DNA of 22,195 nt from a bacterium. GTDB taxonomy: Bacteria > SM23-81 > DAOVCL01. The position numbers and the translations under genes were made by a program. Positions 122 to 15,846 of the stretch are shown piece after piece. Location of the stretch: contig JAOZPP010000052.1 of NCBI GenBank assembly GCA_029932675.1, positions 1 to 22,195 of the forward strand, read 5' to 3'. The notes below the pieces were generated by a model that was not told where the DNA came from, made no database searches, and saw only the letters and a program-made list of their open reading frames with translations. Each line of letters opens with the position of its first letter. Positions within the stretch are counted from its first letter, which is position 1.

Positions 122-1162
122 ATGGAAGCTAAGTATATAGAGAAGAAAAACATCATTCCCTTCTTTATCGCCCTATCCCATCGAGCAGAACTCTACTCCA
201 GTGTGGTAAAGGATGAAGGGATATACTTAGAGAGGCTTTCTGGGGGCAATTTGGAGGATGTGCTCACCGGAGGGAGAAGGACAGTGCAGCCGCTCAAGGC
301 CCTCTTCTTTTTGCCCCTCTCCAAGGTGGGTGAGTACCCCAAAGGGAGTTGGAAACCAGAGGTAGGGGAGAGGATAATAGTGGGGGCTAGGGCTTGCGAT
401 CTGGAGGGGTTAAAGGTTTTGGACAAGGTATTTCTGGAGGGAGATTTTAAGGACCCCTTCTATGAGGCGAGGAGGGGTTCTACAGTGATCATTTCCGCCG
501 ACTGCACCAGACCGGAGGAAACCTGTTTCTGCACGGCAATGGGGGGGAAGCCCTACCCAGAGTCTGGGTTTGATCTCAACTTCTCTTCCCTGGAGGGAGG
601 GATGTTGGTGGAGATTGGTTCGGAGAGGGGAAGGAGGCTAATCAAGGATCATAGGGGGTTCTTTCGGGAGCTCACAGATGAGGAACTGCAGGAAAGAAAG
701 AGGAAGAGGGAGGAGGTAACCAGGGAGGTGGAGGGATTCAATTCTGAATTGGGAATTAAACCCCCTTATCACCCCTTGGTAAAGGGATCCACCGGCTCCC
801 CAAAATGGGCTAAGCTCGCCGAACGATGTGTGGAGTGTGGGGCCTGTCTCTATATCTGTCCCACCTGTCGCTGTTTTCTCCTCTACGACCAGAAGGGAAA
901 GAGGGCAAATGAGAGGGTGATGATCTGGGATGGCTGTTACTTTCCAGGTTATTGGAGGATGGCTGGTGGCCTCACCCCTAAGCCGAGGTTAACCACCAGG
1001 TTTGAGAACCGGTTTAATTGTAAGTTCGACTATTTTGTGGAAAACTATGGAGTGGAGGCCTGCACCGGCTGCGGCCGTTGCATAGAGGCCTGTATGGGCA
1101 AGATTGACATCAGGGAGTGCCTGCAGGAGTTGGGTTCCAAGCCGGTGAAGGAGAAGGTCTGA
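122..1162 (+). CDS. hydB: HydB-type 4Fe-4S electron-transfer subunit (sulfhydrogenase beta / AsrA family)
   Basis: This 346-residue cytoplasmic iron-sulfur protein belongs to the family of sulfhydrogenase beta subunit HydB and anaerobic sulfite reductase subunit A. The N-terminal two thirds carries the family segment GARACDLEGL (88-97) and a cysteine pair in TCFCTAMGG (134-142). The C-terminal third holds a dicluster ferredoxin domain with Cys 236, 239, 242, 246 and Cys 314, 317, 320, 324. Extra cysteines at 249 and 251 may be ligands or structural. In known HydBG pairs, HydB passes electrons between the flavin subunit and the hydrogenase. The hydG homologue follows after one base, which supports that role here. 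The start is the ATG next to the operator; it has no clear ribosome-binding site, so it may be read from a nearly leaderless message. Confidence 0.9.
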   Translation: MEAKYIEKKNIIPFFIALSHRAELYSSVVKDEGIYLERLSGGNLEDVLTGGRRTVQPLKALFFLPLSKVGEYPKGSWKPEVGERIIVGARACDLEGLKVLDKVFLEGDFKDPFYEARRGSTVIISADCTRPEETCFCTAMGGKPYPESGFDLNFSSLEGGMLVEIGSERGRRLIKDHRGFFRELTDEELQERKRKREEVTREVEGFNSELGIKPPYHPLVKGSTGSPKWAKLAERCVECGACLYICPTCRCFLLYDQKGKRANERVMIWDGCYFPGYWRMAGGLTPKPRLTTRFENRFNCKFDYFVENYGVEACTGCGRCIEACMGKIDIRECLQELGSKPVKEKV

Positions 1163-1163
1163 G

Positions 1164-1979
1164 ATGGAGAATCCATATCTCCCTGTGGAGGCAGAGCTTT
1201 TGGAGGTGGTGGAGGAGACCCCCACCATAAAGACATTCGTCCTCAAACCCGCGCAACCCATCCCCTTCCGGGCTGGACAGTTTATGCAGCTCACCGTTCC
1301 GGGAGTGGGGGAGGCTCCTTTTACCCCCTCCTCCTCACCGTATGAGGAGGAGAGGATGGAGATAACTATCCTCAAGACGGGGAGGGTAACTGAGGCCTTG
1401 CATAACTTGCAACCAGGGGTGAGCTTAGGCCTGAGGGGGCCGTTTGGCAAGGGCTATCCAGTGGAGAAGTTTGTGGGCAAGGAGGTGCTAATTGTGGGGG
1501 GTGGGGTAGGGTTAGCCCCCCTGAGGTCGCTCCTCTATTATCTCTTTGCCAATCTCGACAAATTCAAAAAGGTGTCTATAAAGTATGGGGCAAGGATGCC
1601 GGAGGAGCTCTGTTTCCAGAAGCTCTATCCCCAATGGGAGAAGTTGGAAAAGGTTGATTTTACGGTGACCATAGATGTTCCCGCCCCAGGATGGAAGGGA
1701 AGGGTGGGCTTGGTGACTACCCTCCTGGATGACCTGGATATCGATCTAAAGAATTCCTATGTGGTTTCCTGTGGGCCAGAGGTAATGTTAAAGTTCGTTA
1801 CCTACAAGCTGATCGATATCGGCTTTGCCCCTGAGCAGATCTACCTCTCTATGAACAGGAACATGAGCTGTGGTATCGGTAAATGTGGGCGGTGTATTAT
1901 CGGAAAATACTTCCTCTGTAAGGATGGACCTGATATGTGTTATGCGGATATAAAGGATATACCGGGGGTCTTTGGGTAA
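1164..1979 (+). CDS. hydG: HydG-type FAD/NAD(P)-binding electron-transfer subunit (sulfhydrogenase gamma / AsrB family)
   Basis: This 271-residue ferredoxin-reductase-like protein is probably the entry point for NAD(P)H electrons. Residues 1-100 form the FAD-binding barrel. Residues 110-125 contain the nucleotide-binding glycine motif VGGGVGLAPL, and CGPEVMLK (203-210) is the usual second NAD(P)-contact motif. The C-terminus binds a [2Fe-2S] cluster through Cys 236, 241, 244 and 252, as in HydG and PyrK; a further Cys lies at 259. It starts one base after hydB, and the next gene follows immediately, so the three are surely co-translated. Length and domain order are normal for HydG/AsrB. NADH versus NADPH preference cannot be read from the sequence, although the Rex-like site upstream hints at NADH. 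Confidence 0.9.
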   Translation: MENPYLPVEAELLEVVEETPTIKTFVLKPAQPIPFRAGQFMQLTVPGVGEAPFTPSSSPYEEERMEITILKTGRVTEALHNLQPGVSLGLRGPFGKGYPVEKFVGKEVLIVGGGVGLAPLRSLLYYLFANLDKFKKVSIKYGARMPEELCFQKLYPQWEKLEKVDFTVTIDVPAPGWKGRVGLVTTLLDDLDIDLKNSYVVSCGPEVMLKFVTYKLIDIGFAPEQIYLSMNRNMSCGIGKCGRCIIGKYFLCKDGPDMCYADIKDIPGVFG

Positions 1980-3725
1980 ATGGGTGAGATGAGGCGAGGC
2001 ATCTGCCCCTTCTGCTGCCTGCAGGATGGGTTGAGGGTTGAGGGGGGAGAGTTTGCTCTCATCTTCGGGGAGAATTCCCTCCTCCACCTGAACTATGAGT
2101 CAGGGGATAAAATAAACGAGGGTTCTCTCTGCTCCAGAGGAAACTCGGTGATCGACCTATTGGACCATCCCCAGAGGCTCGTTGCTCCCCTTTTGCAAGC
2201 TAAACAAGCAGATTGGAAGAAAGTCAAGAGGGTAATAGCCTCCAAATTAGGGGAGGGGACTTATATCTTCCTTGGCCCCAATCTCACATTAGAGGAGGCT
2301 TGGTTGGCCAAGGAGTTCTCCCGCTCCATGGGCTCAGGTGGGGTTGTCCATCTGGCCCCAGAAGACGGGGAGGCATTTCGAGTTTTGAGATGGTTGGGGC
2401 TGATTGGTGGGCCAGGGATGGAGGAGGTAGAGGGGTCGGATTTCATCCTCCTTGTGGGGGATGCCTTTATGGAACATCCGGTTATCTCTCAGAGGGTGCT
2501 CAGGGCAAAGTATAGGGAGAGGAAGAACAGGCTCTTTGTCCTCGATTCTGTGCGCACCAAACCAACCTGGTTTGCCGACCATCACCTGCAACCCAAGCCG
2601 GGGACTGAGGGGTTTGTCCTAGCCGGGTTGGCCAAAGCGATCTATAGGTCAAAACCTTCCTATTTAGCTCCCCTATTTAAGGAAATCGAGTTAGAGGGGG
2701 TAGCCGAGATCGCTGGCCTGGATAAGGGGGAAATAGAGGAGGTAGCCTCCCAGCTTGCCTCTGCCCGCCAGGGAATGGTTATTCTCTCTAATCTCTGGGG
2801 GAGGGTGGGACCAGTAGGGCTGGCCGCATTGTTCGGTAGCTTGCTGGCCTCCATTAGCGGGGGGAGATTTCTCCATCTCCCTGTCTATCAAAATGGGTTT
2901 GGAACGTGGCTCATCCTGGGGGAGGGGCCCTCTGGTGCGCAGCTTTTGGATGAACTGGGAAAGGTAAAGGGACTCTTCGTCATTGGGTTTGATCTTTTCT
3001 CCTCCCTCCCCGGGGGAACTGAGGATGGTATCCTGAAGAAGCTTGACTTCCTTTGGGCCACTGCCGTTCTTCCTAACCGGACGACGGAGAGGGCAGAGCT
3101 TGCCCTCCCCGCGGCGTCTGGTTTGGAGAAGGGGGGGAACCTTCTCTACTTGGATGGAGCCTTGCGGAGGATGGAACCAGTATTGCCGCCTCCGGGTGTG
3201 GCCAAGGCCGAGGGGGAAATCTTCCAGGATATAGCTGGTGAGGGGAAGCTTCCCCCTCCCAATGAGGATAAGTTAAGGGAGGCAGTGAAAGGGGAACCCC
3301 TTCCTGAGAGGGAGATCGTCCAAAGGGCTCAAGCCCTATGGGAGGAGGAGCTCTCCAAGGCCCCCCAAGAGAACCTCCCCTTTTGGCTTATTCCCTCTGC
3401 CCACCCCGCACACCTGGGGGATGGTTCAATTACCGGCCACTTGGGTTGGGCGAGGAAGATCTGTGCAGAACCTTCCATCGAGCTCAGTCCGCTTGCCGCC
3501 GAAAAGCTGAAACTGGAGGCAGGGGCCAAGGCAGTGGTGAGCTCGCCGGCTGGAAAGGAGACATTTACCGTCACCATAAACGAACGGCTAAAGGAGGATC
3601 AGGCTACGGGACCTGCCCACTTTCCTCAGCTACGCAGGCTCTTTCCTTGGGAGGTGGGGAGGACCCTGGGCGAGCTTTCCTTACGCCCCCAAAGGGTGAG
3701 GATCACCAAGGCCAAAGGGGACTGA
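1980..3725 (+). CDS. Molybdopterin-oxidoreductase-like (FdhA/NuoG-like) subunit, probably non-catalytic
   Basis: This 581-residue protein has the fold order of formate dehydrogenase A and NuoG. An N-terminal iron-sulfur segment (CPFCCLQDGL at 9-18 and Cys 51 in SLCSRGN) is followed by the central domains. A family motif LPAASGLEKGGN lies at 376-387, and the C-terminus (about 468-575) is dinucleotide-binding-like. The gene sits where fdhA sits in formate hydrogenlyase clusters. However, there is no cysteine between residues 52 and 493 and no in-frame TGA, so the Cys/Sec that binds Mo or W in formate dehydrogenases is absent. The cluster motif is also altered: Cys 9, 12 and 13 replace the usual CxxCxxxC spacing. 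It is shorter than typical FdhA. I infer a NuoG-like structural or electron-wiring subunit rather than an active formate dehydrogenase; binding of a pterin cannot be excluded. Confidence 0.8.
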   Translation: MGEMRRGICPFCCLQDGLRVEGGEFALIFGENSLLHLNYESGDKINEGSLCSRGNSVIDLLDHPQRLVAPLLQAKQADWKKVKRVIASKLGEGTYIFLGPNLTLEEAWLAKEFSRSMGSGGVVHLAPEDGEAFRVLRWLGLIGGPGMEEVEGSDFILLVGDAFMEHPVISQRVLRAKYRERKNRLFVLDSVRTKPTWFADHHLQPKPGTEGFVLAGLAKAIYRSKPSYLAPLFKEIELEGVAEIAGLDKGEIEEVASQLASARQGMVILSNLWGRVGPVGLAALFGSLLASISGGRFLHLPVYQNGFGTWLILGEGPSGAQLLDELGKVKGLFVIGFDLFSSLPGGTEDGILKKLDFLWATAVLPNRTTERAELALPAASGLEKGGNLLYLDGALRRMEPVLPPPGVAKAEGEIFQDIAGEGKLPPPNEDKLREAVKGEPLPEREIVQRAQALWEEELSKAPQENLPFWLIPSAHPAHLGDGSITGHLGWARKICAEPSIELSPLAAEKLKLEAGAKAVVSSPAGKETFTVTINERLKEDQATGPAHFPQLRRLFPWEVGRTLGELSLRPQRVRITKAKGD

Positions 3726-3726
3726 A

Positions 3727-4215
3727 TTGGAGGAGAAGAGGGTCATACTCGACCTCAACTACTGTATTGGGTGTCAATCCTGTGCGGCGGCCTGTTGGCA
3801 GGGGCATCATCAGCAGTCCAGGCTCTCACATGGGGAGGTAAGCGGGCTGGCCTTCCTTCCCCTCAACTGTCGTCAATGTGAGGAACCGGCCTGTGTTAAT
3901 GCCTGTCCCACGGATGCCCTGGAGAAGGGGGAGGATGGGATAGTGCGGCGCAGGGCCTTGCTTTGTGTGGGCTGTCGCTCCTGTGTCTATGCTTGTCCCT
4001 TTGGGGTGATGGAAGGGGAGCTAATCCAGCACCTTACCCCCAACTGTGATCTCTGCCAGGATCGGGTTAGCCGGGGAGAAGAGCCCAGATGTGTGGCCAC
4101 CTGTGTATCGGGAGCACTCAGGTTCGTTTCCCTTTCTGAGGTTTATGGTGAGGATAAGGGCGATTTACAAGTGGGAGCAAGGGTCATCTCCCGAAGCCTG
4201 TTGAAGAGGTCTTAG
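3727..4215 (+). CDS. HycB/CooF-like ferredoxin with four [4Fe-4S] clusters
   Basis: This 162-residue polyferredoxin has sixteen cysteines in four groups: 13/16/19/23, 48/51/56/60, 80/83/86/90 and 107/110/122/126. This is the pattern of HycB, HydN, CooF and DMSO-reductase-type beta subunits, which carry four clusters. It would relay electrons between the molybdopterin-like subunit or HydBG and the hydrogenase small subunit. The TTG start follows one base after the previous stop and is preceded by AAAGGGG as ribosome-binding site. It ends directly against the nuoH-like gene. Family membership is secure; its exact redox partner is inferred from position. Confidence 0.9.
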   Translation: MEEKRVILDLNYCIGCQSCAAACWQGHHQQSRLSHGEVSGLAFLPLNCRQCEEPACVNACPTDALEKGEDGIVRRRALLCVGCRSCVYACPFGVMEGELIQHLTPNCDLCQDRVSRGEEPRCVATCVSGALRFVSLSEVYGEDKGDLQVGARVISRSLLKRS

Positions 4216-5151
4216 ATGGAGTTCAGCCTTAAGCCGTTGTTATATTTTCTTGTATTTCCTGGATTTGCCTTTACGGCGATAGTGGGGCTTCTCTCCTCCT
4301 GGGTGGATAGGAAGGTTTCCGCCAAGGTGCAGTGGAGGGTTGGTCCCCCTTGGTATCAAAACTTCGCCGATATCATCAAGCTCCTTCATAAGGAGATAAT
4401 CGTCCCCCAGGGGAGCGGGTTCACCGGTTTTCTCTTCGCTCCCCTCTTAGGATTGGCTGGGGCCACCTTGGTCTCCACGATAATCTGGGTGATAAACCTC
4501 AACCCTGACTCGGGATTTGTTGGTGATCTAATTGTGGTCCTCTACCTCTTGGCCTTCCCCTCTTTAGGGGTGATCATTGGAGGTTCTGCCTCCCGGAACC
4601 CCTTGGGGGGATTGGGAGCATCAAGGGAGATGAAGCTTATCTTGGCCTATGAGCTTCCCTTTATCATTGCCGTCTTCACCGCGGTGCTTAAAGTGGGTTC
4701 CATTCTCCTCGGGGACATAATCGGTTACCAGCAGGTATCAGGGATTATGCTCAGGCATCCTTCCTGCATAATAGCCTTCTTGGTGGCCTTGATCTGTGCC
4801 CAGGCCAAGTTGACTTTAGTGCCCTTTGACATCCCGGAAGCCGAGCAGGAATTGATCGCTGGCCCATTTACCGAATATTCGGGAGCACCTTTGGCCATCT
4901 TCAAACTGACCAGAGCAATGATGCTCTTCATCCTTCCCGTCTTCTTAATCACCCTTTTCTGGGGAGGGATGAACTTTCATGGCTGGCAGATATTGGCCTC
5001 TTGCTTGAAATACTTAGCTATTCTGGTCTTCATTATCTTGGTAAAGAACACAAATCCCCGCCTGAGGATAGACCAGGCGATGAAGTTTATGTGGGGTCCG
5101 ATGACCATTTTGGCCATTGGAGGGATGATCTTGGCCGTAGTTGGGCTTTAA
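4216..5151 (+). CDS. mbhM: Hydrogenase membrane anchor subunit, NuoH/HycD/EchB/MbhM family
   Basis: This 311-residue membrane protein has about eight hydrophobic helices. The conserved cytoplasmic loop SSWVDRKVSAKVQWRVGP (27-44) follows the first helix, and the FDIPEAEQEL segment is the signature of the NuoH family. In group 4 hydrogenases this subunit anchors the small and large subunits and forms the first part of the ion-translocation path. It starts with ATG immediately after the previous stop. The next gene begins 13 bases after its stop. Length is typical, and no defect is visible. Confidence 0.93.
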   Translation: MEFSLKPLLYFLVFPGFAFTAIVGLLSSWVDRKVSAKVQWRVGPPWYQNFADIIKLLHKEIIVPQGSGFTGFLFAPLLGLAGATLVSTIIWVINLNPDSGFVGDLIVVLYLLAFPSLGVIIGGSASRNPLGGLGASREMKLILAYELPFIIAVFTAVLKVGSILLGDIIGYQQVSGIMLRHPSCIIAFLVALICAQAKLTLVPFDIPEAEQELIAGPFTEYSGAPLAIFKLTRAMMLFILPVFLITLFWGGMNFHGWQILASCLKYLAILVFIILVKNTNPRLRIDQAMKFMWGPMTILAIGGMILAVVGL

Positions 5152-5164
5152 AGGAGAGTTGCTG

Positions 5165-5578
5165 ATGGGACTAAAATCATGGTCTCTGAGGAAATCACCC
5201 TGGATATTCCATCTCTCCACCGGTTCCTGCAACAACTGTGACATCGAACTTTTAGATTGTCTCACTCCCAAATTCGATGTGGAGAGGTTTGGCATAGTTC
5301 TCGTCGGGAGTATCAGGCATGCCGATGCCCTGATAGTTACCGGTGCAGTGACCAGACAGGCAGCACCTAAGCTCAAATATCTCTGGGAGCAGATGCCTAA
5401 GCCAGGATTGGTTGTTGCCCTGGGGACATGTGGTTGTTCCTCCGGAATCTTCAGGGATTCCTACAACATCATCGGACCTGTAGATAAGATCATTCCCGTA
5501 GATGTCTATGTTCCGGGGTGCCCTCCCAAGCCGGAGGCGATCATCTCTGGGATCGTCAAGGGATTGGCCAAGCTTTGA
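5165..5578 (+). CDS. mbhJ: [NiFe] hydrogenase small subunit, NuoB/HycG/EchC/MbhJ family
   Basis: This is the small subunit carrying the single proximal [4Fe-4S] cluster of group 4 hydrogenases. Candidate ligands are visible in GSCNNCDIE (Cys 22 and 25), GTCGCSSG (Cys 89) and PGCPPKP (Cys 119), numbering from the chosen start. I chose the ATG at 5165 (137 residues) because AAAGGAGAG lies at good spacing before it. An in-frame ATG at 5141 overlaps the end of the previous gene and lacks a comparable site. There is no signal peptide or extra cluster domain, unlike uptake hydrogenases, so it faces the cytoplasm. It works with the large subunit two genes downstream. Confidence 0.92.
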   Translation: MGLKSWSLRKSPWIFHLSTGSCNNCDIELLDCLTPKFDVERFGIVLVGSIRHADALIVTGAVTRQAAPKLKYLWEQMPKPGLVVALGTCGCSSGIFRDSYNIIGPVDKIIPVDVYVPGCPPKPEAIISGIVKGLAKL

Positions 5579-5629
5579 GAGTGAGGAGAATGTTCTGAGG
5601 ATTGACCTCGATAAACCGTAGGTCGTTAT

Positions 5630-6055
5630 ATGGATGTAGCTGAGAAGATAAGAGCCGAATTCGGGGAGAGGGTGGATTTAGCCTTCAGATCTCCCAAGAG
5701 GTTGTATCTCCTGGTGGGCAAGGGAGATCTCCCCGCAGTAGCCCGTTTTCTCTTTGCGGAGCTCGGGGCCCGCTTCTGCACGGCCAGTGCAGTGGATACC
5801 AGAGCGGGGATTGAGATATTGTACCACTTCTTTTTTGACCAGCTTAGCTTGATGGTTAGCCTGAGGACCTTGCTTCCCAAGCCCTCCCCCCAGATAGAAT
5901 CGATTGCCCCCTTCCTTAAGGGTGCTGAGTGGGTAGAGAGGGAGATAGCCGACCTCTTTGGGGTAGAATTTCTCGGCCATCCTGACCCGCGGCGCCTGAT
6001 TCTCCCTGACGACTGGCCAGAGGGGGAATACCCATATCTGAGGAGTTCAGATTGA
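5630..6055 (+). CDS. mbhK: NuoC-like subunit, MbhK / HycE N-terminal domain family
   Basis: This 141-residue protein is related to NuoC (30-kDa complex I subunit) and to the N-terminal half of HycE. The signature is near the C-terminus: a WVEREIADLFGVEF segment followed by GHPDPRRLILPDDWPEGEYP. It has a structural role, packing beside the large subunit in the peripheral arm. A 51-base gap separates it from the small-subunit gene. The start codon has only a weak AGGT upstream. Its stop overlaps the TTG start of the large-subunit gene, indicating translational coupling. In E. coli HycE this domain is fused to the large subunit; here it is separate, as in Mbh. Confidence 0.9.
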   Translation: MDVAEKIRAEFGERVDLAFRSPKRLYLLVGKGDLPAVARFLFAELGARFCTASAVDTRAGIEILYHFFFDQLSLMVSLRTLLPKPSPQIESIAPFLKGAEWVEREIADLFGVEFLGHPDPRRLILPDDWPEGEYPYLRSSD

Positions 6056-7242
6056 AGACAATCATTCCTATAGGCCCCTATCATCCCCTCTTAGAGGAGC
6101 CGGAGTTCTTCAAACTGGTGGTGGAGGGGGAAACGGTAGTAGATATGGATATCAGAATTGGCTGGAACCATCGGGGGATAGAGAAGTTAGCCGAAACGAA
6201 GACCTTTGATCAACTGGTCTTCTTGGTGGAGCGGATATGTGGTATCTGTTCCACGTCCCACCCCATAGCTGATGTCTTGGCCCAGGAGGATCTGGCTGGG
6301 GTGGAGGTACCGGAGAGAGCCCAATATATCCGTTCCATTGTCGCTGAACTGGAGAGGCTGCACAGCCATCTTTTATGGCTGGGATTAGCTGGTCACTTTA
6401 TCGGATACAACACCGTCTTTATGTGGGTCTGGAAGTACCGGGAACCCCTCCTCGATCTATTTGAGCTGATCACTGGAAACCGCAACGATTATGCCATGCT
6501 CAGGCCAGGTGGCGTGCGGCGGGACATCTATAAGAAGGATCTGCCGGCCATCAGGAAGGTGATGGATGAACTGGAACCAGCCAATGAGATGCTCACCAAG
6601 GCGATCTTAGACGATCCGGTGCTTAATGCCCGGCTGAAGGGGGTGGGGGTGTTGAGCAAGGAGGATGCCATTAGGTACTGCGTAGTAGGGCCCACTGCCC
6701 GGGCCTCTGGGGTGGATATAGATGTCCGCCGCGATGAACCCTACGCTGCCTATGACAAGGTGGAGTGGAAGGTGATTGTGCAGGAGGATGGGGATGTACT
6801 GGCCAAGGCGGTGGTGAGGCTGTTGGAGAACTTCGAATCGATAAAGATAATTCGCCAATGTGTCGATAGGTTAGAAGAACTGCCTGAGGGGAATATCTGG
6901 AACCCTATCCCTGAGATGCCCCCGGGAGAGGGAATAGGTCATGAGGAGGCCCCGCGGGGTGAGTGCTTCCACTACATCCGTTCTGACGGAGGGAACTACC
7001 CAGTGAGGGTAAAGGTAAGGGCCCCCACTTTTAGCAACCTTCCCTCCTTTAAGGCTTCCTGTCTGGGGGAGACCGTTTCCGATGTGGCCCTAATTACCGC
7101 CGGGATTGATCCCTGCTACTGCTGCACGGAGAGGATGGCTGCGGTCTACGATGGCTCAAACAGAAGGTTATATGATTGGCAGGATCTGGTGAGGTTATCC
7201 CAGGAGAAGACGGAGAAGATTAGAAAGGAGTTGGGGAGATAG
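6052..7242 (+). CDS. mbhL: [NiFe] hydrogenase large (catalytic) subunit, group 4, MbhL/HycE type
   Basis: This 396-residue catalytic subunit binds the NiFe centre for proton reduction or H2 oxidation. Both nickel-ligand motifs are present: RICGICSTSH with Cys 63 and 66, and DPCYCCTER with Cys 355 and 358. They separate it from complex I NuoD, which has lost these cysteines. The DPCxxCTER motif is the group 4 form. The protein runs 38 residues past the last ligand. As in E. coli HycE, cleavage after the Arg of CTER by a HycI-type peptidase is plausible, but no peptidase gene is in the window. The start is TTG within TTGA, overlapping the previous stop, with GAGGAG just upstream. The Mrp-linked neighbourhood suggests subgroup 4b/4d-like; a phylogeny would be needed to assign it. 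Confidence 0.95.
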   Translation: MKTIIPIGPYHPLLEEPEFFKLVVEGETVVDMDIRIGWNHRGIEKLAETKTFDQLVFLVERICGICSTSHPIADVLAQEDLAGVEVPERAQYIRSIVAELERLHSHLLWLGLAGHFIGYNTVFMWVWKYREPLLDLFELITGNRNDYAMLRPGGVRRDIYKKDLPAIRKVMDELEPANEMLTKAILDDPVLNARLKGVGVLSKEDAIRYCVVGPTARASGVDIDVRRDEPYAAYDKVEWKVIVQEDGDVLAKAVVRLLENFESIKIIRQCVDRLEELPEGNIWNPIPEMPPGEGIGHEEAPRGECFHYIRSDGGNYPVRVKVRAPTFSNLPSFKASCLGETVSDVALITAGIDPCYCCTERMAAVYDGSNRRLYDWQDLVRLSQEKTEKIRKELGR

Positions 7243-7243
7243 G

Positions 7244-9082: not shown

Positions 9083-9235
9083 AGGTTCAGCTTTTTGGGA
9101 ATTAAGACAAATGGGGCAATCGAGGTAGTGATCCCCTTTATTAATCCGGGAGACCCGAGGAAGATCTGTTCTTTGATAGGAGATCGATTAAGGGTATCTG
9201 CCATTTGGAGGGCTTTTAAAAAAGAGGTGTTTAAA

Positions 9236-9433
9236 ATGGGTGCATCAGGAAACCTTTTGGGCTTGTTTGCCCTTTCCAGCGCGATCTGTTGTCATCTAAT
9301 CTCGAAGGCACACTTTGGAGTTACCAAGAGTTGGATTACCAACAGATGGTTTTGGGTCGGGTTATTTGGGAATCTGCCCGCCCTGGTCGCTTTTTTGGGC
9401 CACATCTACCTTTCTAAAAGGGGAGGGGGTTGA
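9236..9433 (+). CDS. Small hypothetical membrane protein
   Basis: I do not recognise this 65-residue protein. It has two hydrophobic stretches, about residues 6-23 and 40-59, the second following an NRWFWVG segment, and a basic C-terminus. I chose the ATG at 9236 because AGAGGTG lies about six bases upstream. The frame is open back to a TTG at 9095, but that start has no ribosome-binding site and the extra 47 residues look unremarkable. It lies between the NuoL-like gene and an exported protein. It could be a small accessory subunit of the complex or cargo inserted with the next gene. Confidence 0.5.
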   Translation: MGASGNLLGLFALSSAICCHLISKAHFGVTKSWITNRWFWVGLFGNLPALVAFLGHIYLSKRGGG

Positions 9434-9488
9434 TCTGGGGTGGGATTCCTAAGGCCTTTAGCAAATCCTTAAGGCTGGGGAGGAGGGG

Positions 9489-11057
9489 TTGAAATCAATC
9501 ATTAAACTTTTTCTGATTTATGGTTGTTGGTTGTTCGTTGCTTTTCCATCCCCTCTTTGGGGAAGGGTGAGGGCTGCAGATCTATCGGATAATGACTACA
9601 CTGCACTTAAGGTCTGTGAAGGGGTAATCCAACTGTTCAAGCAGTTCCCTGACTCTGTTTGGCCGGGATACAACCTAACGGAGAGGCCATTTGTCTTCTA
9701 TATGCCTGGGAAGTGGGTGCTTCTCTTCAACTGCCCAAAAGAAGTAGAGGGCTTTGCTCCCTACCCAAAGGATTGGCCAGATTTAGGAACAGATGTGCTA
9801 TTTCATAGAGGAGAATATGAGGGGTTGGTTGGGCAGCTTGCCTTCGGCTTATCCATCGATTCGGTGGAGGCCGCTGCCGTCCCTTTTGTGGAAAGGCCTG
9901 TTGGGCAGCTCTTAGGGTTTATCGTCCACGAGAACTTCCACCAATACCAGAAGTATGGCAGATATCCTGCATTCGGGGAGATCCCCTGGGAACGGGAGGA
10001 GAGATATCCCATCCAAGATCGGGAAAACACAGCCCTTGCCTATCTGGAGATGCGGGCTTTAATGGATGCTTTAATGATGGCCGATAAGGGTGAGGAGAGG
10101 GGATGCCGGCGGAAGATAGGTCAATTTTTGGCCGTGCGGAATCAGCGGTGGAAACGGGCTATCCCCTTTGTGGCCAGATATGAGCAGGGTGAAGAGATCA
10201 ACGAAGGGACTGCCCGGTATGTGGAACTAAAGAGCATTGCCCTGATGGCTCGGGTGAAGTACAGGTCTTCACTTAATGGTCTAACGACCCCCCTCTGGGA
10301 GGATCTTTCCGCGATCTCAATGCCCGAATATCTCCTTGACGATTTCCGCGGTCGGATTACAGGAAAATCTATTTCCCCTGAGGATATGCCCCGGAACAGG
10401 GTATATCCAGTAGGGAGCGCTCAGGGGTTCTTGTTGGATCACTTGGGGATTGAGTGGAAGGACAGGGCTCAACGAGCTGGCCCTGAGTTCACCTATGCCC
10501 AGCTTTTCAGGGAAAAATTGGATGTGACCGAGGAGGAGATGGAGGATCTCCTAAGGGAAGCAAAAGAGGATTATAGTTGGGAGGAGGTTCTAACAGCAAC
10601 GGATTCGCTCATCCAGAGATATCTAAATGGCTATGATAAGGAACTTAGGGCCTTTGAAGCCCAGTCCGGCTACAGAATAGAGGTGGCCCTGAACTCCCGA
10701 GGCCTTACTCGATCGCGGTCCTCCAGCGCAAAGAAGTGGAGGGTGGATAATGGAACGCGGGAGCTCTGCAACCATTTTGATGTTTATCTTCTAAAGAACG
10801 ACTTCCTCCTCTTGAAAATACATGACAGCGGGGTGTGGGAGGAGAATGATTGGGACACGGGAAGGAGGGAAGTGGTTTTCTTCGATCCACAGCTTACCTC
10901 CTTCTCGTTGGACGAAGAACCCCTTAAGCCAGTGCAAGGGGCTTTGTACCGGTTTAAAGATATCCAAATCTCTGGGAAGAACTTTAAACTTCACTATTCC
11001 CGGGAAGGCACTGTGGTGATCAGGGATCATCGGGTGAAGGTGAACCTAATTGCCTAA
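9489..11057 (+). CDS. Exported HExxH protein, putative zinc metallopeptidase
   Basis: This 522-residue protein has an N-terminal signal peptide: a basic start, a hydrophobic core at about 4-20, and a likely cut after VRA near residue 29. The motif HENFHQYQ (147-154) is an HExxH zinc site. NEGTARYVE (238-246), about 90 residues on, looks like the third-ligand segment of gluzincin peptidases, with Glu 239 the candidate. I infer a periplasmic or surface metallopeptidase; substrate and exact family are unknown. The C-terminal 120 residues are beta-rich-looking and unassigned. The TTG start lies just after GGGGAGGAGG. The gene interrupts the hydrogenase operon between the NuoL-like gene and the Mrp module, on the same strand, with a 140-bp gap after it. 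No known hydrogenase function matches it. Confidence 0.75.
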   Translation: MKSIIKLFLIYGCWLFVAFPSPLWGRVRAADLSDNDYTALKVCEGVIQLFKQFPDSVWPGYNLTERPFVFYMPGKWVLLFNCPKEVEGFAPYPKDWPDLGTDVLFHRGEYEGLVGQLAFGLSIDSVEAAAVPFVERPVGQLLGFIVHENFHQYQKYGRYPAFGEIPWEREERYPIQDRENTALAYLEMRALMDALMMADKGEERGCRRKIGQFLAVRNQRWKRAIPFVARYEQGEEINEGTARYVELKSIALMARVKYRSSLNGLTTPLWEDLSAISMPEYLLDDFRGRITGKSISPEDMPRNRVYPVGSAQGFLLDHLGIEWKDRAQRAGPEFTYAQLFREKLDVTEEEMEDLLREAKEDYSWEEVLTATDSLIQRYLNGYDKELRAFEAQSGYRIEVALNSRGLTRSRSSSAKKWRVDNGTRELCNHFDVYLLKNDFLLLKIHDSGVWEENDWDTGRREVVFFDPQLTSFSLDEEPLKPVQGALYRFKDIQISGKNFKLHYSREGTVVIRDHRVKVNLIA

Positions 11058-11105
11058 ATAGCGCTTCCGGTGAGGAGGGAGTTACGAAAAATCCTATAGT
11101 GTCAA

Positions 11106-11122
11106 GCGGAGGAATTCCCCGC
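11106..11122. repeat. Imperfect palindrome in the gap before the Mrp module
   Basis: GCGG and CCGC flank the self-complementary GGAATTCC with a single bulged A. It could be an operator or a small hairpin. The 140-bp gap (11058-11197) holds no other clear signal; a TATAGT nearby lacks a matching -35 box. Confidence 0.25.
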
Positions 11123-11197
11123 GGAAATATCCAAAGGTGAACACCTGGGGTTATTTAAAGGGGATATACTCCATCCAACTTTGATGGGAGGTAGGAA

Positions 11198-11761
11198 TTG
11201 GTCTTATTTGTTGTCCTTCTTGTTTTTATGATCATCGGCTCCATCATCGCCATTGAGGCGAGGAACCTGCTCTCCTCGGTGATCTCGGTGGGGACTGTGG
11301 GCTTTGCCTTGAGCATTGCCTTCCTCCTCCTCGGGGCGCCTGATATCGCTATCACCCAGATAGTGGTGGAGGTAATCGCCCTCATCATCTTGATCAGGGG
11401 GACCATTTCCTTGGATAATACAGCGATAGAAAAACACAGGGACACATTTGCAATGGTCTCTGCCCTTGTCTTCTTCGGCATCTTCTTGGCCTTCAGCTAT
11501 GTTGCCCTTAAGGATATGCCTGAGTTTGGGAAACCTCTGATGAAGGTCTCTCAGGGTTATCTCCAGAGGGGGCTGCAGCGCACCGGGGCAGCAAACATAG
11601 TAATGTCCATAGTCCTTGACTTCAGGGGGTATGATACATTGGGAGAGGCTACTGTGCTCTTTACCTCTATCTTGGGGGCATTCGTGGTCTTACGGAAGAG
11701 GGGGAGGAAGAAGAAGGAGGAGAGGGATAGGGCCAGAGTGGGTATCCCTGGTGATCTTTAA
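11198..11761 (+). CDS. MbhD-MbhE fusion (DUF4040 plus MrpA C-terminal-like) antiporter subunit
   Basis: This 187-residue membrane protein joins two modules that are separate in the archaeal Mbh hydrogenase. Residues 1-90 match MbhD (DUF4040), with the segment LLLGAPDIAITQIVVEV. Residues 95-170 match MbhE, the MrpA C-terminal part, with DFRGYDTLGEATVLFTS. In classical Mrp antiporters both parts are the tail of MrpA. The module links the Mrp subunits to the rest of the membrane arm and takes part in Na+/H+ transport. The TTG start is preceded by GGGAGGTAGG. The C-terminal tail is very basic (RKRGRKKK). It heads the mnhB-mnhG series. Confidence 0.88.
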   Translation: MVLFVVLLVFMIIGSIIAIEARNLLSSVISVGTVGFALSIAFLLLGAPDIAITQIVVEVIALIILIRGTISLDNTAIEKHRDTFAMVSALVFFGIFLAFSYVALKDMPEFGKPLMKVSQGYLQRGLQRTGAANIVMSIVLDFRGYDTLGEATVLFTSILGAFVVLRKRGRKKKEERDRARVGIPGDL

Positions 11762-11773
11762 GGGAGGCAAGCA

Positions 11774-12235
11774 ATGCAGGGGATGACTATAATAGTAAAG
11801 ACGGTGGTGCGTATCGTCACTTCCTTTATCGTGCTCTATGGGATCTATATTGTCCTGTATGGCCACCTCACACCGGGAGGAGGCTTCCCTGGTGGAGTGA
11901 TCGTAGCCGCTGCCTACATCCTCATTATGCTGGCCTATGGGAAGGAGGTGGCTTTGAGAAGTTTTGGTGATAAGTCTGCTTCCCTGTTGGATAACCTTGG
12001 AGCCTTTGGCTTTTTAGCTATTGCCCTCTTGGGGCTGACCGGGGGTTACTTCTTCCTCAACTTCATCAACCACGGTCAACCCTTTAGGCTGGTCAGCGCG
12101 GGCACCTTACCCCTTTCTAATATCGCCATTGGGGTAAAGGTCTCCGCCTGCCTCTATGCCGTTTTCATTGCCTTAGCCATATTTGGCCGGGCAGTTTATC
12201 GGGCGATGGAGGAACCAGGGAAGGAGGAGCGATGA
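11774..12235 (+). CDS. mnhB: Na+/H+ antiporter subunit B (MnhB/MrpB, MbhF equivalent)
   Basis: This 153-residue protein has four hydrophobic helices. The MnhB signature HLTPGGGFPGGVIVAAAYI (51-69) sits between helices one and two. In Mrp antiporters and Mbh hydrogenase this subunit is part of the sodium-translocating membrane module. It starts 12 bases after the previous gene, with GGGAGGC as ribosome-binding site. Its stop overlaps the mnhC start by four bases. Length and motif are normal. Confidence 0.92.
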   Translation: MQGMTIIVKTVVRIVTSFIVLYGIYIVLYGHLTPGGGFPGGVIVAAAYILIMLAYGKEVALRSFGDKSASLLDNLGAFGFLAIALLGLTGGYFFLNFINHGQPFRLVSAGTLPLSNIAIGVKVSACLYAVFIALAIFGRAVYRAMEEPGKEER

Positions 12236-12582
12236 TAGTCTACCTTCTTACCTTCATTCTCTTCGTTATGGGCCTCTACTGCCTGGTGGCCAAGAAGAAT
12301 GTGGTCAAGAAAGTTATTGGGATAGTGATTATGGATTACGCGGTTAACCTCCTCCTCATCTTGGTGGGATATAGAAGGGGTGGAGTAGCCCCCATTCTCC
12401 TTAAGGGGATGGATAGGGCGAAGTTCACCACCCAGAGCGTAGATCCTCTACCTCAGGCCCTTGTGCTTACCTCCATAGTCATTGGGTTGGGAGTGTTGGC
12501 CCTAATGGTTGCCCTTTGCATCAGGCTATATGAGAAGTATAAGACCTTCGATATGAGCGAGATAAGGAGATTGAGAGGATGA
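12232..12582 (+). CDS. mnhC: Na+/H+ antiporter subunit C (MnhC/MrpC, NuoK-like, MbhG equivalent)
   Basis: This 116-residue protein has three hydrophobic helices and is homologous to NuoK. It contains the MnhC/MbhG-type loop with PLPQALVLTSIVIG, in which a proline-rich turn leads into the third helix. It overlaps mnhB by four bases (ATGA), so translation is coupled. It ends 18 bases before mnhD. It is expected to form, with MnhA/D-type subunits, the ion path of the antiporter module. Confidence 0.92.
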   Translation: MIVYLLTFILFVMGLYCLVAKKNVVKKVIGIVIMDYAVNLLLILVGYRRGGVAPILLKGMDRAKFTTQSVDPLPQALVLTSIVIGLGVLALMVALCIRLYEKYKTFDMSEIRRLRG

Positions 12583-12600
12583 GAGTTTCCAGGAGAAACG

Positions 12601-14076
12601 ATGCATAGCCTGCTTCCACTTTTTATTGCCATCCCCTTGGGTGCGGCCTTTTTAGGTCTAATCATCGCCAAGCTCTGGAGAGGGGTAGGTGGGCTCTTTG
12701 CCTTTCTGAGCACCCTCTCCCTAATGGTTTTCTCCTTTCTGCTTTTAGGCTCCTCCCCCTCCATCTATAAGATGGGGGGATGGATTCCTCCGGTGGGGAT
12801 AAACCTGGTCTCCGATGGGCTAAGTACCCTAATGCTCGTGGTGATAAATACCGTAGCATTCCTGGCCATAGTCTTCTCTATAAAGTATATGGAGCTCTAT
12901 ACAGCCAAACCCAAATACTATGCGCTTTTTATGCTTATGATGGCGGGAATGAATGGGGTAGCCCTTACTGGGGATATGTTCAACCTCTTCGTATTTTTAG
13001 AGATAGCCTCTATTGCCTCCTATGCCTTAGTGGCCTTTGGCTGTGAGCACGAGGAGTTGGAGGCCTCGTTTAAATACCTTATCTTGGGTGGGGTGGCCTC
13101 TACATTGGTCCTCTTGGGGATAGCCATCCTTTATAGCACAACGGGTACCCTGAATATGGCAGATATAGCCCAGAGTCTCTCCACTCATGGGGCGAATAAG
13201 GCTTCCCTCTTTGCCTTGGCCCTTCTGGTTATGGGATTCGGGGTAAAGGGTGCACTGGTTCCCTTCCATGCCTGGCTTCCTGATGCCCATCCTTCTGCCC
13301 CTGCCCCCATCTCGGCAATGCTCTCCGGAGTGCTCATCAAAGTTTTGGGAATTTACGCCCTTACCAGGGTTATCTTCCATGTTTTTGGCTTTACCCCCAC
13401 CCTGGGGGCTATCCTAATGGGCTTAGGTGGGCTCTCTATGGTGGTGGGTGCGCTGCTGGCCATTGGCCAGGACGACCTGAAGAGGCTCTTGGCCTATTCC
13501 ACTATAAGCCAAGTTGGTTACATAATTTTAGGGTTGGGATTGGGCACCCCACTGGGGATAATCGGGGGGCTTTTTCACCTCTTAAATCATGCTACGTTCA
13601 AGTCCCTTCTCTTTATGTCCTCTGGGGCTATTGAGTACTCTACGGGAACGAGGAGACTAAGCCAGATGGGGGGGTTGAACAAGAGGCTGCCTGTTACTAC
13701 GGCCGGCTCAACGGTGGGTTTCCTCTCCGTAAGCGGCATCCCCCCGTTTAATGGCTTCTTCAGTAAGCTGATTATAATTGTTGCCTGTGTGGCGGCCCAC
13801 CAGTACATATATGCTGGGATAGCTGCTTTCGTCGGCCTTTTTACCCTCCTCTACTTTTTGCGGGTGCAGAGGAACCTCCTCTTTGGAGATCTCCCAGAAA
13901 GCCTGCAGGGGATCAAGGAAGTTCCCTTCTTAATGTGTTTTTCGCTGGTGGTTTTAGCCGTCCTCTGCCTGGGGTTGAGCTTTCTCTATCCCCTGATGTC
14001 CAAGACCCTTCTGGCCTCAGCGCGGGATGCCCTTTTGAACACATCTGCATATATTAAACTTGTCCTGGGGGGGTAA
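12601..14076 (+). CDS. mnhD: Na+/H+ antiporter subunit D (MnhD/MrpD, NuoN/M-like, MbhH equivalent)
   Basis: This 491-residue, roughly 14-helix antiporter subunit contains the Proton_antipo_M domain. Glu 134 (FLEIASI), Lys 216 (GVKGALVPFHAWLPDAH) and Lys 247 (VLIKVLG) are the conserved charged residues of the proton path. The first two Lys positions coincide in number with those of the NuoL-like subunit upstream, a sign of the shared fold. Length is normal for MrpD. Its TAA stop shares an A with the mnhE ATG. It is the likely main pumping subunit of the Mrp module. Confidence 0.93.
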   Translation: MHSLLPLFIAIPLGAAFLGLIIAKLWRGVGGLFAFLSTLSLMVFSFLLLGSSPSIYKMGGWIPPVGINLVSDGLSTLMLVVINTVAFLAIVFSIKYMELYTAKPKYYALFMLMMAGMNGVALTGDMFNLFVFLEIASIASYALVAFGCEHEELEASFKYLILGGVASTLVLLGIAILYSTTGTLNMADIAQSLSTHGANKASLFALALLVMGFGVKGALVPFHAWLPDAHPSAPAPISAMLSGVLIKVLGIYALTRVIFHVFGFTPTLGAILMGLGGLSMVVGALLAIGQDDLKRLLAYSTISQVGYIILGLGLGTPLGIIGGLFHLLNHATFKSLLFMSSGAIEYSTGTRRLSQMGGLNKRLPVTTAGSTVGFLSVSGIPPFNGFFSKLIIIVACVAAHQYIYAGIAAFVGLFTLLYFLRVQRNLLFGDLPESLQGIKEVPFLMCFSLVVLAVLCLGLSFLYPLMSKTLLASARDALLNTSAYIKLVLGG

Positions 14077-14567
14077 TGACAAAGAAGATGACAATTTTTC
14101 TGGTTACCCTTGTCACCTGGCTTCTCCTCACCTGGTCACTTGATCCGGAAGAGGTAATTGCTGGGGTAACCGTTGCTCTTTTGATTTCCGTCCTCTTTTC
14201 GAATCTCTTCCTCAGCCAAGGGAAGAAAACTAATTTTGCACCACGGAGGCTTGGTTGGTTCCTCCTTTACCTGCCTGTCTTCTTCTACTATGTGATCAAG
14301 GCCAACTTCGATGTTGCCTACCGGGTGCTTCACCCAGAGATGCCCATAAATCCGGGGATAGTAAAGGTGAAGACCACCTTGAAGACCCAGACTGGAAAGA
14401 CCTTTCTGGCCAATTCCATAACCCTCACCCCAGGGACCCTTACCGTGGATATCGTGGGGGACTGGCTCTATGTCCATTGGATAAATATCTCTACTCTCGA
14501 TCCTGAGGAGCAGACTAAGCTAATCGTTACCAGGTTTGAACGATTCTTAAGGAGGATTTACGAATGA
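14076..14567 (+). CDS. mnhE: Na+/H+ antiporter subunit E (MnhE/MrpE, MbhA equivalent)
   Basis: This 163-residue protein has two or three N-terminal hydrophobic helices, including FLLYLPVFFYYVIKANF near 65-81. The cytoplasmic C-terminal domain carries the MnhE signature TLKTQTGKTFLANSITLTPG and DWLYVHWI. It is a structural part of the Mrp module. It overlaps mnhD by one base and mnhF by four bases. No irregularity was seen. Confidence 0.92.
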   Translation: MTKKMTIFLVTLVTWLLLTWSLDPEEVIAGVTVALLISVLFSNLFLSQGKKTNFAPRRLGWFLLYLPVFFYYVIKANFDVAYRVLHPEMPINPGIVKVKTTLKTQTGKTFLANSITLTPGTLTVDIVGDWLYVHWINISTLDPEEQTKLIVTRFERFLRRIYE

Positions 14568-14818
14568 CCTTGTTCATTTGGGTGCTGGTTTTTTGCTGTT
14601 TCCTCTGCCTGTATCGGGTAGGTGCTGGCCCCACTCCTCCAGATAGGACCGTGGCCATCGATATACTGGGGACTTTAGTGGTGGGGATCTGCACCATCTG
14701 GGCAGTAATTAAGGGGAAGGACTTTTACATCAACATCGCCATTGCCTGGGCTCTTTTGAGCTTCATTGGCACCATCACTTTAGCTAAATATCTGGAAGGG
14801 AAGGGATTCGATGAGTGA
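14564..14818 (+). CDS. mnhF: Na+/H+ antiporter subunit F (MnhF/MrpF, MbhB equivalent)
   Basis: This 84-residue protein has three hydrophobic helices. It has the family segment GAGPTPPDRTVAIDILGT after the first helix and a conserved IAIAWALLSFIGTITLAKYLEG end. AAGGAGGA precedes the ATG, which overlaps the mnhE stop. Its end overlaps mnhG by eight bases. Identification rests on the motif, length and position in the usual E-F-G order. Confidence 0.92.
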   Translation: MTLFIWVLVFCCFLCLYRVGAGPTPPDRTVAIDILGTLVVGICTIWAVIKGKDFYINIAIAWALLSFIGTITLAKYLEGKGFDE

Positions 14819-15170
14819 GACCGTAGGGATCATCTTCTTTATCATCGGTGGCCTCTTCGACCTCTTCGGCTGTATCGGACTGGTTAGGCTGCCAGACATC
14901 TACAACCGACTGCAGGCAGCTACCAAGTGTGTCACCCTGGGAACTTGTTTTATCCTCTTTGGCGCCTTTTTCTGGTCTGGCTTTTCGGCTATGGGGATCA
15001 AGGCGCTTCTTTGTGCCGCATTTATCCTCATCACTTCACCGACGGCCGCGCATGCTCTCGCCCGTGGCTCCCATATATTCGGAGTGAAGCTCTGGGAGAA
15101 AAGCCTTATGGACAAGTATGCTGAGGATGAAGAAGGGAGATTAAGCGGAGGGAAGGTTGAGAAAGCCTAA
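14811..15170 (+). CDS. mnhG: Na+/H+ antiporter subunit G (MnhG/MrpG, MbhC equivalent)
   Basis: This 119-residue protein has three hydrophobic helices. The MnhG signature LVRLPDIYNRLQAATKCVTLG lies between helices one and two, and TSPTAAHALARGSHIFG follows the third. It completes the Mrp set. It overlaps mnhF by eight bases and the following ferredoxin gene by fourteen, so the last three genes are tightly coupled. The C-terminal 20 residues are acidic then basic and lie outside the membrane. Confidence 0.92.
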   Translation: MSETVGIIFFIIGGLFDLFGCIGLVRLPDIYNRLQAATKCVTLGTCFILFGAFFWSGFSAMGIKALLCAAFILITSPTAAHALARGSHIFGVKLWEKSLMDKYAEDEEGRLSGGKVEKA

Positions 15171-15774
15171 GCTCAGGGAATTAAGGGAGGCAGTGAAGGC
15201 CTTTGTCAAGGGGCCATATACCACCAAGTTTCCCAAGGTTCCCTCGATTCCTCCAGAGACCTTTCGCGGGAAGCCGAAATATGATGAGGAAGGTTGTGTG
15301 GGCTGTGGGGCCTGCGCCCAGGTCTGCCCATCCGCTGCCATTGAGCTAATAGATGAGAGGGGAAAGGGCCCAACTGGGACGAGGAGGTTAGTCCTTCACT
15401 ACGATCTATGTCACTTCTGTGGACAGTGTGAGGCCAACTGTATTACCGAGGAGGGGATCAAGCTCTCCTTGGAATACGACCTAGCCACCTATGACCGGAG
15501 GGAGACAGTGGAGTCTGTGGAGAAGGAGCTTCTCTTCTGCGAGTTCTGTGGTGCCCCGGTTACTGCGGTTGACCACCTCAGATGGTTGGCCAGGAAACTT
15601 GGCCCTTTGGCCTTCTCCAATCAAGCATTGATATTGGTCTCCCACAAGGAGCTGGCCTTGGTAGAGAAAACCGCTCCCCGGGATAAGAGGCCTGTCTGGA
15701 GGACGGACTATATGAGAATCCTCTGTCCTAAGTGCAGGAGGGAGGTCATCTATACCGAGGAGTGGGGAACATAG
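15157..15774 (+). CDS. mbhN: NuoI/HycF/MbhN-like ferredoxin subunit with C-terminal zinc-ribbon-like cysteines
   Basis: This 205-residue peripheral subunit has two [4Fe-4S] clusters, ligated by Cys 47/50/53/57 and Cys 85/88/91/95. These are the clusters that feed the small subunit in complex I-like hydrogenases. The C-terminal half has two CxxC pairs (128/131 and 190/193) about 60 residues apart, a probable zinc or rubredoxin-like site as in HycF/HyfH-type proteins. The TTG start lies inside the mnhG coding end, after GGAGGGAAGG. It is the last gene of the operon and is followed by a strong hairpin. In P. furiosus Mbh the equivalent gene is also last. Confidence 0.9.
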   Translation: MRKPKLRELREAVKAFVKGPYTTKFPKVPSIPPETFRGKPKYDEEGCVGCGACAQVCPSAAIELIDERGKGPTGTRRLVLHYDLCHFCGQCEANCITEEGIKLSLEYDLATYDRRETVESVEKELLFCEFCGAPVTAVDHLRWLARKLGPLAFSNQALILVSHKELALVEKTAPRDKRPVWRTDYMRILCPKCRREVIYTEEWGT

Positions 15775-15815: not shown

Positions 15816-15846
15816 AATTAGGGGGGTTCATCACCCCCCTAATTTT
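15816..15846. terminator. Hairpin terminator ending the hydrogenase operon
   Basis: A perfect 12-bp stem has arms AATTAGGGGGGT (15816-15827) and ACCCCCCTAATT (15833-15844) with a five-base loop TCATC, followed by a short T run. It lies 41 bases after the last operon gene. The G/C-rich core and A/T-rich base would let it work as an intrinsic terminator. Confidence 0.75.

Follow-up and report, generated by a model that had tools for sequence, protein, structure and literature searches.

Where does a membrane-bound hydrogenase find its electrons when its operon opens with genes for the NAD(P)H-linked subunits of a soluble one? The question is raised by the operon at 122-15774 of a 22,195-nucleotide stretch of bacterial DNA (the window, meaning the whole stretch analyzed here), which comes from contig C33 of a 3.03 Mb genome (G000) that is 97% complete. 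There, genes for HydB and HydG, homologs of the sulfhydrogenase beta and gamma subunits, lead into genes for a group 4 [NiFe]-hydrogenase and an Mrp-type membrane module. Our answer, which we consider probable, is a membrane complex that oxidizes cytoplasmic NADH and reduces protons to H2, coupled to the movement of Na+ or H+. The evidence for it includes the near-constant company of HydBG and the hydrogenase core in relatives from about 16 phyla and a Rex-like operator directly before hydB.

The operon and its hydrogenase core

All operon genes lie on one strand, with neighbors mostly abutting or overlapping, and each has a family match in Pfam or NCBIfam. The gene content named in an earlier sequence-only reading (HydB, HydG, an FdhA/NuoG-like protein, a four-cluster ferredoxin, a group 4 core, and an Mrp module in one operon) is confirmed in every part. 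That reading did not report the start of the operon upstream of 122, where a promoter-like site (66-94) and a Rex-like operator (104-121) are found. Promoter-like and terminator-like matches are about as frequent in shuffled sequence, and the weight of those listed here lies in their position.

66-94, +, sigma-70-like promoter TTGACA-17-TACTAT with extended -10 TG; 10 of 12 consensus bases, consensus match alone
104-121, +, Rex-like operator TTGTGAAAAATTTCCCAA, one deviation from TTGTGAANNNNTTCACAA; directly 5' of the hydB ATG
122-1162, +, HydB/AsrA-like iron-sulfur subunit (sulfhydrogenase beta); family and PDB matches, ligand Cys conserved across 57 loci
1164-1979, +, HydG/AsrB/PyrK-like FAD, NAD(P), and [2Fe-2S] subunit (sulfhydrogenase gamma); four [2Fe-2S] Cys invariant across 60 loci
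1980-3725, +, degenerate FdhA/NuoG-like molybdopterin-family protein; lacks the Mo-ligating Cys/Sec, catalytic His, and catalytic Arg loop
3727-4215, +, HycB/CooF-like four-cluster ferredoxin; family matches, 16 Cys
4216-5151, +, NuoH/HycD/MbhM-like membrane subunit; family matches
5141-5578, +, NuoB/HycG/MbhJ-like small subunit; C30, C33, C97, and C127 invariant
5630-6055, +, NuoC/MbhK-like subunit; family matches
6052-7242, +, [NiFe]-hydrogenase large subunit (NuoD/HycE/MbhL-like); CGIC, DPCYCCTER, and a C-terminal extension
7244-9082, +, NuoL-like antiporter subunit; key Glu/Lys/Lys present
9083-11197, +, window-specific insert with two unrelated open reading frames (ORFs; 9095-9433 and 9489-11057), outside the complex; no counterpart in relatives
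11198-11761, +, fused MbhD-MbhE; family match
11774-12235, +, MrpB/MnhB; family match
12232-12582, +, MrpC/NuoK-like subunit; family match
12601-14076, +, MrpD antiporter subunit; family match, key Glu/Lys/Lys present
14076-14567, +, MrpE; family match
14564-14818, +, MrpF; family match
14811-15170, +, MrpG; family match
15157-15774, +, NuoI/HycF-like two-cluster ferredoxin with C-terminal CxxC...CxxC; family matches
15821-15840, +, terminator-like hairpin at the operon end; consensus match alone

Is the large subunit that of a true hydrogenase, or does the operon encode a Ni-less complex of the Ehr/Mbx type? The NuoD-like subunit carries two CxxC Ni ligand motifs (CGICSTSH and DPCYCCTER), with C63, C66, C355, and C358 invariant; of the 80 relatives described below, all share an identical L2 motif and 79 have an intact L1 motif. 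A C-terminal extension follows DPCYCCTER, as in HycE, whereas the solved MbhL stops at the corresponding Arg. The HycE extension is cleaved off during maturation, and two HycI-family maturation proteases are encoded in the host genome, in which the operon NuoD is the sole Complex1_49kDa gene. The intact L1 and L2 motifs, the extension, and the proteases therefore rule out a Ni-less Ehr/Mbx-type complex. As judged from its sequence, 122-15774 encodes a complete group 4 [NiFe]-hydrogenase with intact Ni ligands.

MbhDE and MrpB-G stand beside this core, as in Mrp-linked enzymes of the Mbh type. Both the NuoL-like subunit and MrpD carry the Glu and Lys equivalents of E144, K229, and K399 in E. 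coli NuoL, and the cluster Cys of NuoI are invariant or nearly so across loci. The Mrp-type module, earlier described as full, does contain MbhDE and MrpB-G, but the run is interrupted at 9083-11197, between the NuoL-like and MbhDE genes, by a 2.1-kb insert with two unrelated ORFs that occur in none of the other 80 loci. The 522-amino acid (aa) product of 9489-11057 starts with a signal-like sequence, contains HENFH, a motif of the HExxH type, and has no Pfam match. Beyond the operon, at 19419-22160, the translation read by eye gives a protein of 913 aa that has TPR-like and GAF-like regions followed by a sigma-54 activator domain at the C-terminus.

HydBG and its neighbors across relatives

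Does HydBG belong with the hydrogenase, or is it a chance neighbor? We compared 80 relative loci from about 16 phyla, selected as the best matches to the window NuoD; the co-occurrence figures describe this NuoD clade rather than all group 4 enzymes. Presence was counted in loci whose contig reaches far enough, with a limit of 9 kb for HydB. HydG was found in 62 of 62 testable loci, HycB in 64 of 64, and HydB in 58 of 59, the sole exception (L057) having HydB just past the limit. The NuoL and Mrp subunits were present in about 93-97% of testable loci. Three loci (L045, L077, and L081) have HydBG-HycB and the core with no Mrp genes within about 10 kb, and may represent assembly effects or Mrp-free variants. 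Pairwise distances, which in part follow shared host descent, correlate with those of NuoD at 0.88 for HydB, 0.90 for HydG, and 0.91 for HycB; the values are 0.85-0.89 for the core subunits NuoB, NuoC, and NuoH and lower, 0.31-0.68, for the Mrp subunits. Gene order is kept across phyla, and the arrangement is therefore not due to chance. With the same arrangement recurring in all these loci, the proposal that HydBG belongs with the core has withstood the co-occurrence check.

In a posterior mean site frequency tree whose outgroups were 4a, 4d, and NuoD sequences on long branches, with named 4b, 4c, 4e, 4g, 4h, and 4i references left out and a bootstrap that had not settled, all HydBG-linked NuoD sequences group together in a clade (98/97) that excludes HycE/HyfG, MbhL, and E. 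coli NuoCD. The Omnitrophota require ten label changes on this tree, a pattern suggestive of either interphylum transfer or mis-binning of contigs. The nearest named relatives of the window are Zixibacteria metagenome-assembled genomes (MAGs), with a NuoD identity of 92% for L004. In two Zixibacteria loci (L005 1-3402 and L006 1-3807), a second complex I-like set stands directly upstream of hydB; its NuoD lacks both CxxC motifs, and it includes a NuoI-GltD-like fusion of about 625 aa.

What could HydBG contribute? The best PDB matches are the Pyrococcus furiosus sulfhydrogenase I beta subunit for HydB (E 2e-46), with all cluster cysteines kept, and the gamma subunit for HydG (E 2e-54). Homology to that enzyme (9nez) extends over nearly the full length of both proteins; it is a soluble, NADPH-linked member of group 3b, whereas the window pair accompanies a membrane-bound core of group 4. 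The FAD and NAD domains, the PyrK-like [2Fe-2S] site, and the HydB cluster cysteines that mark an NAD(P)H module are all present, and the flavoprotein and cluster Cys of the pair are invariant or nearly so across loci. The 16 Cys of the HycB-like protein correspond to four clusters, three of them invariant or nearly so and the first less conserved. In formate hydrogenlyase and in CO-linked complexes, ferredoxins of the HycB type serve the catalytic input modules as adaptors.

Matches of HydB and HydG extend to AsrA and AsrB, and the pair might instead serve sulfur or sulfite reduction as a sulfhydrogenase or AsrABC-like enzyme, its adjacency to the core reflecting a shared redox role and not one complex. 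This we find barely credible. The operon contains no AsrC-like sulfite reductase, HydB scores higher against sulfhydrogenase subunits than against AsrA, and both the strict synteny and the matching distances tie the pair to the group 4 core. The host genome has a second HydB/HydG pair (L110, G000:C9:21000-40000; HydG 45% identity), in a large cluster where we named by eye FlxC-like, group 3-type [NiFe]-hydrogenase, and fumarate-reductase-like subunits as well as a 1503-aa HdrA-like protein carrying a GltD-like insert.

Between HydG and HycB, the window encodes the FdhA/NuoG-like protein (1980-3725), with a Molybdopterin domain (E 1.5e-12). Its hidden Markov model matches to Fdh-alpha and its overall Mo-bisPGD family fold would suit a working Mo/W oxidoreductase that feeds the hydrogenase from formate or another substrate, as in a group 4b-like, formate-type Mrp hydrogenase. 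That is very improbable. By comparison with E. coli FdhF, the Mo-ligating Sec/Cys140, His141, and the Arg333 loop are missing in six of six family members, three of which have also lost the C-terminal cofactor domain; the protein is therefore unlikely to be a formate dehydrogenase, and that candidate was rejected. The authors of PMC6349859 likewise could not identify the molybdopterin protein as a formate dehydrogenase. The operon thus has no catalytically competent formate dehydrogenase subunit such as marks the formate-linked enzymes of groups 4a and 4b. An AlphaFold model (mean predicted local distance difference test score 71.7, from a six-sequence alignment, with the N-terminal 51 residues below 50) matches Nap, formate dehydrogenase, and NuoG about equally (Z 25-26), a fold that does not discriminate among them, and also the molybdopterin-oxidoreductase-like chain of Nfn-ABC (9bov_A). 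The Nfn-ABC chain and NuoG are Mo-family folds within electron-transfer complexes; the window protein is shorter than either and located in a hydrogenase operon.

The sequence-only reading had made this protein a defining part of the complex, a claim that we abandon. In a profile search of the loci, the gene between HydG and HycB is confined to Zixibacteria, Latescibacterota, Saganbacteria, and Margulisiibacteriota, whose members form a single NuoD subclade (100/96), consistent with one gain; it is missing from most relatives, where HydG directly abuts HycB. A role as a core subunit was rejected on this distribution. The protein would be a catalytically dead structural or electron-wiring subunit of this subclade, comparable to NuoG. 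In three Zixibacterial forms (1980-2120 in the window), the third Cys of the N-terminal CxxCxxxC cluster motif is Asp, making an Asp-ligated cluster possible; the Cys is retained in the Saganbacteria, Latescibacterota, and Margulisiibacteriota forms. In a Clostridia MAG (L032 762-5774), an FdhA-family gene and rex lie upstream of the HydBG hydrogenase operon.

The Rex-like operator and a probable link to NADH

Why NADH? Between the promoter and hydB, the site TTGTGAAAAATTTCCCAA (104-121) has one mismatch to the generalized Rex operator TTGTGAANNNNTTCACAA quoted in PMC5317091. Rex represses at low NADH/NAD+ according to the passages of PMC5317091 and PMC2883068 drawn on here, and the same reasoning was applied to an NADH-linked [FeFe]-hydrogenase in Caldithrix (PMC5317091). 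By its match to the consensus, 104-121 is a candidate Rex-binding site. The relaxed pattern TTGTGAAANNTTTCNCAA occurs once per genome in G000, G002, and G003, three of the four genomes of the phylum, and always at this operon; a reversed control of the pattern gave zero occurrences. A Rex-like site of at least 12/14 lies within 300 bases of hydB in 13 of the 53 relatives whose upstream sequence is long enough, compared with 0.12% of random segments from the same loci; the binomial tail of 1e-26 overstates the enrichment because the relatives are non-independent. Six Omnitrophota loci have rex at the head of the operon, directly before hydB, with an 11-13/14 site in front of rex, and five Bacteroidales loci have rex and hydB in divergent orientation, separated by Rex-like sites. 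The Rex operators and adjacent rex genes therefore point to NADH as the electron donor, and the NAD(P)H link drawn earlier gains in strength. The Rex link before hydB is the new element of this analysis. In the literature searched, we found no report of it or of HydBG as a universal module, and either may have been noticed elsewhere.

Could the enzyme work in the uptake direction, with H2 oxidation reducing NAD(P)+ via HydBG and the surplus energy stored as an ion gradient? HydBG modules of the sulfhydrogenase type are reversible in group 3b enzymes, and the step from H2 to NAD+ is downhill at high H2. A Rex operator, by contrast, would repress when NAD+ is plentiful, just when H2-driven NAD+ reduction is useful, and group 4 enzymes are mostly H2-evolving. 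We regard uptake as improbable.

Known hydrogenases and the proposed mechanism

How new is this enzyme? To call its composition unusual, as the sequence-only reading did, is too strong. In 2019, Matheus Carnevali et al. (PMC6349859) described from Saganbacteria RX5A an enigmatic [NiFe]-hydrogenase of group 4, whose genes are accompanied by those for Mrp subunits, by cooF, asrA, and asrB, and by one for a molybdopterin oxidoreductase that could not be classified. They found its nearest relatives in Zixibacteria and Omnitrophica, left the electron donor open, and proposed an Mbh-like function. The gene set is that of the window, whose subclade includes a Saganbacteria locus (L037); for the gene that the paper calls asrA, HydB is the better match here, and its main text makes no mention of Rex. 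Mrp-linked group 4 enzymes of Omnitrophota and Cloacimonadota, phyla also found in the HydBG clade, were already labeled HydDB group 4g (PMC8542988, in the part cited), a group listed with an undetermined role and as putatively ferredoxin-coupled (PMC5037454, likewise); HydBG is not mentioned in those parts of either source. The literature label of these phyla makes 4g, indirectly, a candidate class for the window. Its operon belongs to a described but uncharacterized hydrogenase type, for which the donor hypothesis is here sharpened.

Among known systems, the large subunit has its best PDB match in MbhL of P. furiosus Mbh (4d; E 2e-84), and the MbhDE, MrpB-G, and NuoH/B/C/D/I modules are shared. 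Mbh lacks both HydBG and HycB, takes its electrons from ferredoxin, and contains one antiporter-like subunit versus two here; in the tree, MbhL lies apart from the HydBG clade (98/97, with long branches), and the presence of HydBG and HycB sets the window apart from group 4d. E. coli formate hydrogenlyase (4a) resembles the window in its HycB-type adaptor, its HycF-like counterpart of NuoI, and the HycE extension after DPCxxCTxR, but has formate dehydrogenase H as input and no Mrp module, and the large subunits separate in the tree.

The likeness to Mbh raises the question of whether the electrons come from ferredoxin, entering via NuoI or HycB, with HydBG as a side module that reduces NAD(P)+ or combines electrons from NADH and ferredoxin while Mrp conserves energy. 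The reaction from ferredoxin to H2 is exergonic enough for ion pumping, MbhL is the closest solved large subunit, and an Mbh-like function is what Matheus Carnevali et al. hypothesized (PMC6349859). An optional side module would not be expected to match the catalytic core in constancy and to track it closely, as HydBG does. Among the operon proteins, family matches reveal no second, bifurcating flavoprotein of the NuoF or NfnB type, as would characterize a NuoEF/HydABC-type enzyme, and Rex control points to NADH. We consider a ferredoxin-dependent enzyme unlikely.

Several observations nonetheless weigh against NADH-driven H2 formation by a single complex. Group 4g is listed as putatively ferredoxin-coupled (PMC5037454, in the part cited). 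NuoI and HycB could also take electrons from ferredoxin. Comparison of HydG with sulfhydrogenase I showed no residue decisive for NAD versus NADP. MrpD distances correlate weakly with those of NuoD (0.31), so that the Mrp arm may be more loosely associated with the core, and shared host descent contributes to all such correlations. Searches of G000 (97% complete) by BLAST with an Omnitrophota Rex and with the Rex N-domain family found no rex gene, whereas rex is present in the other three phylum genomes (G001, G002, and G003). The palindrome at 104-121 resembles a CRP-type site of equal spacing, and one relative (L052) has a Crp-like regulator upstream. About half of the relatives have neither a rex gene nor a Rex-like operator.

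How, then, would an NADH-oxidizing complex operate? The sequence data show the gene content and its conservation, the intactness of the metal and cluster ligands, and the enrichment of the operator. We infer that the subunits assemble into a single complex and that its substrate is NADH rather than NADPH, and the direction of flux and the ion are to be read in the same conditional sense. HydG, with its FAD and [2Fe-2S] cluster, would accept hydride from NADH, and the [4Fe-4S] clusters of HydB would relay the electrons onward. In other group 4 enzymes, a ferredoxin of the HycB/CooF type is the adaptor that joins formate dehydrogenase or CO dehydrogenase to the hydrogenase; it would have the same function here, with HydG-HydB taking the place of the formate dehydrogenase input module. 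From HycB, electrons would pass via NuoI and NuoB to the [NiFe] site of NuoD, while NuoH, the NuoL-like subunit, and the MbhDE/Mrp module translocate Na+ or H+. At about -320 mV, NADH reduces less strongly than H2 (about -414 mV, standard). The step is therefore uphill, and the ion gradient would most likely drive H2 formation when H2 is not very low; with a partner keeping H2 scarce, the reaction could proceed at no net cost or with the export of a few ions. Rising NADH/NAD+ would release transcription through the Rex operator, which suggests a role in disposing of fermentative NADH as H2. More tentatively, we view the enzyme as a complex I-like machine in which protons replace quinone, NADH enters through HydBG, and the gradient is spent, and its relatives in about 16 phyla as a distinct, NADH-linked group 4 class, often Rex-controlled and now labeled ferredoxin-coupled.

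Fermentation and syntrophy are limited by how hard it is, thermodynamically, to dispose of electrons from NADH as H2. Cells are known to do so by confurcating them with ferredoxin or by reverse electron transport via separate enzymes. The Rex operator yields a directly testable prediction. If the proposal is true, annotation would change for a hydrogenase class now listed as ferredoxin-coupled with an undetermined role, and a single ion-coupled NADH:H+ oxidoreductase would explain the fermentative life of many uncultured phyla.

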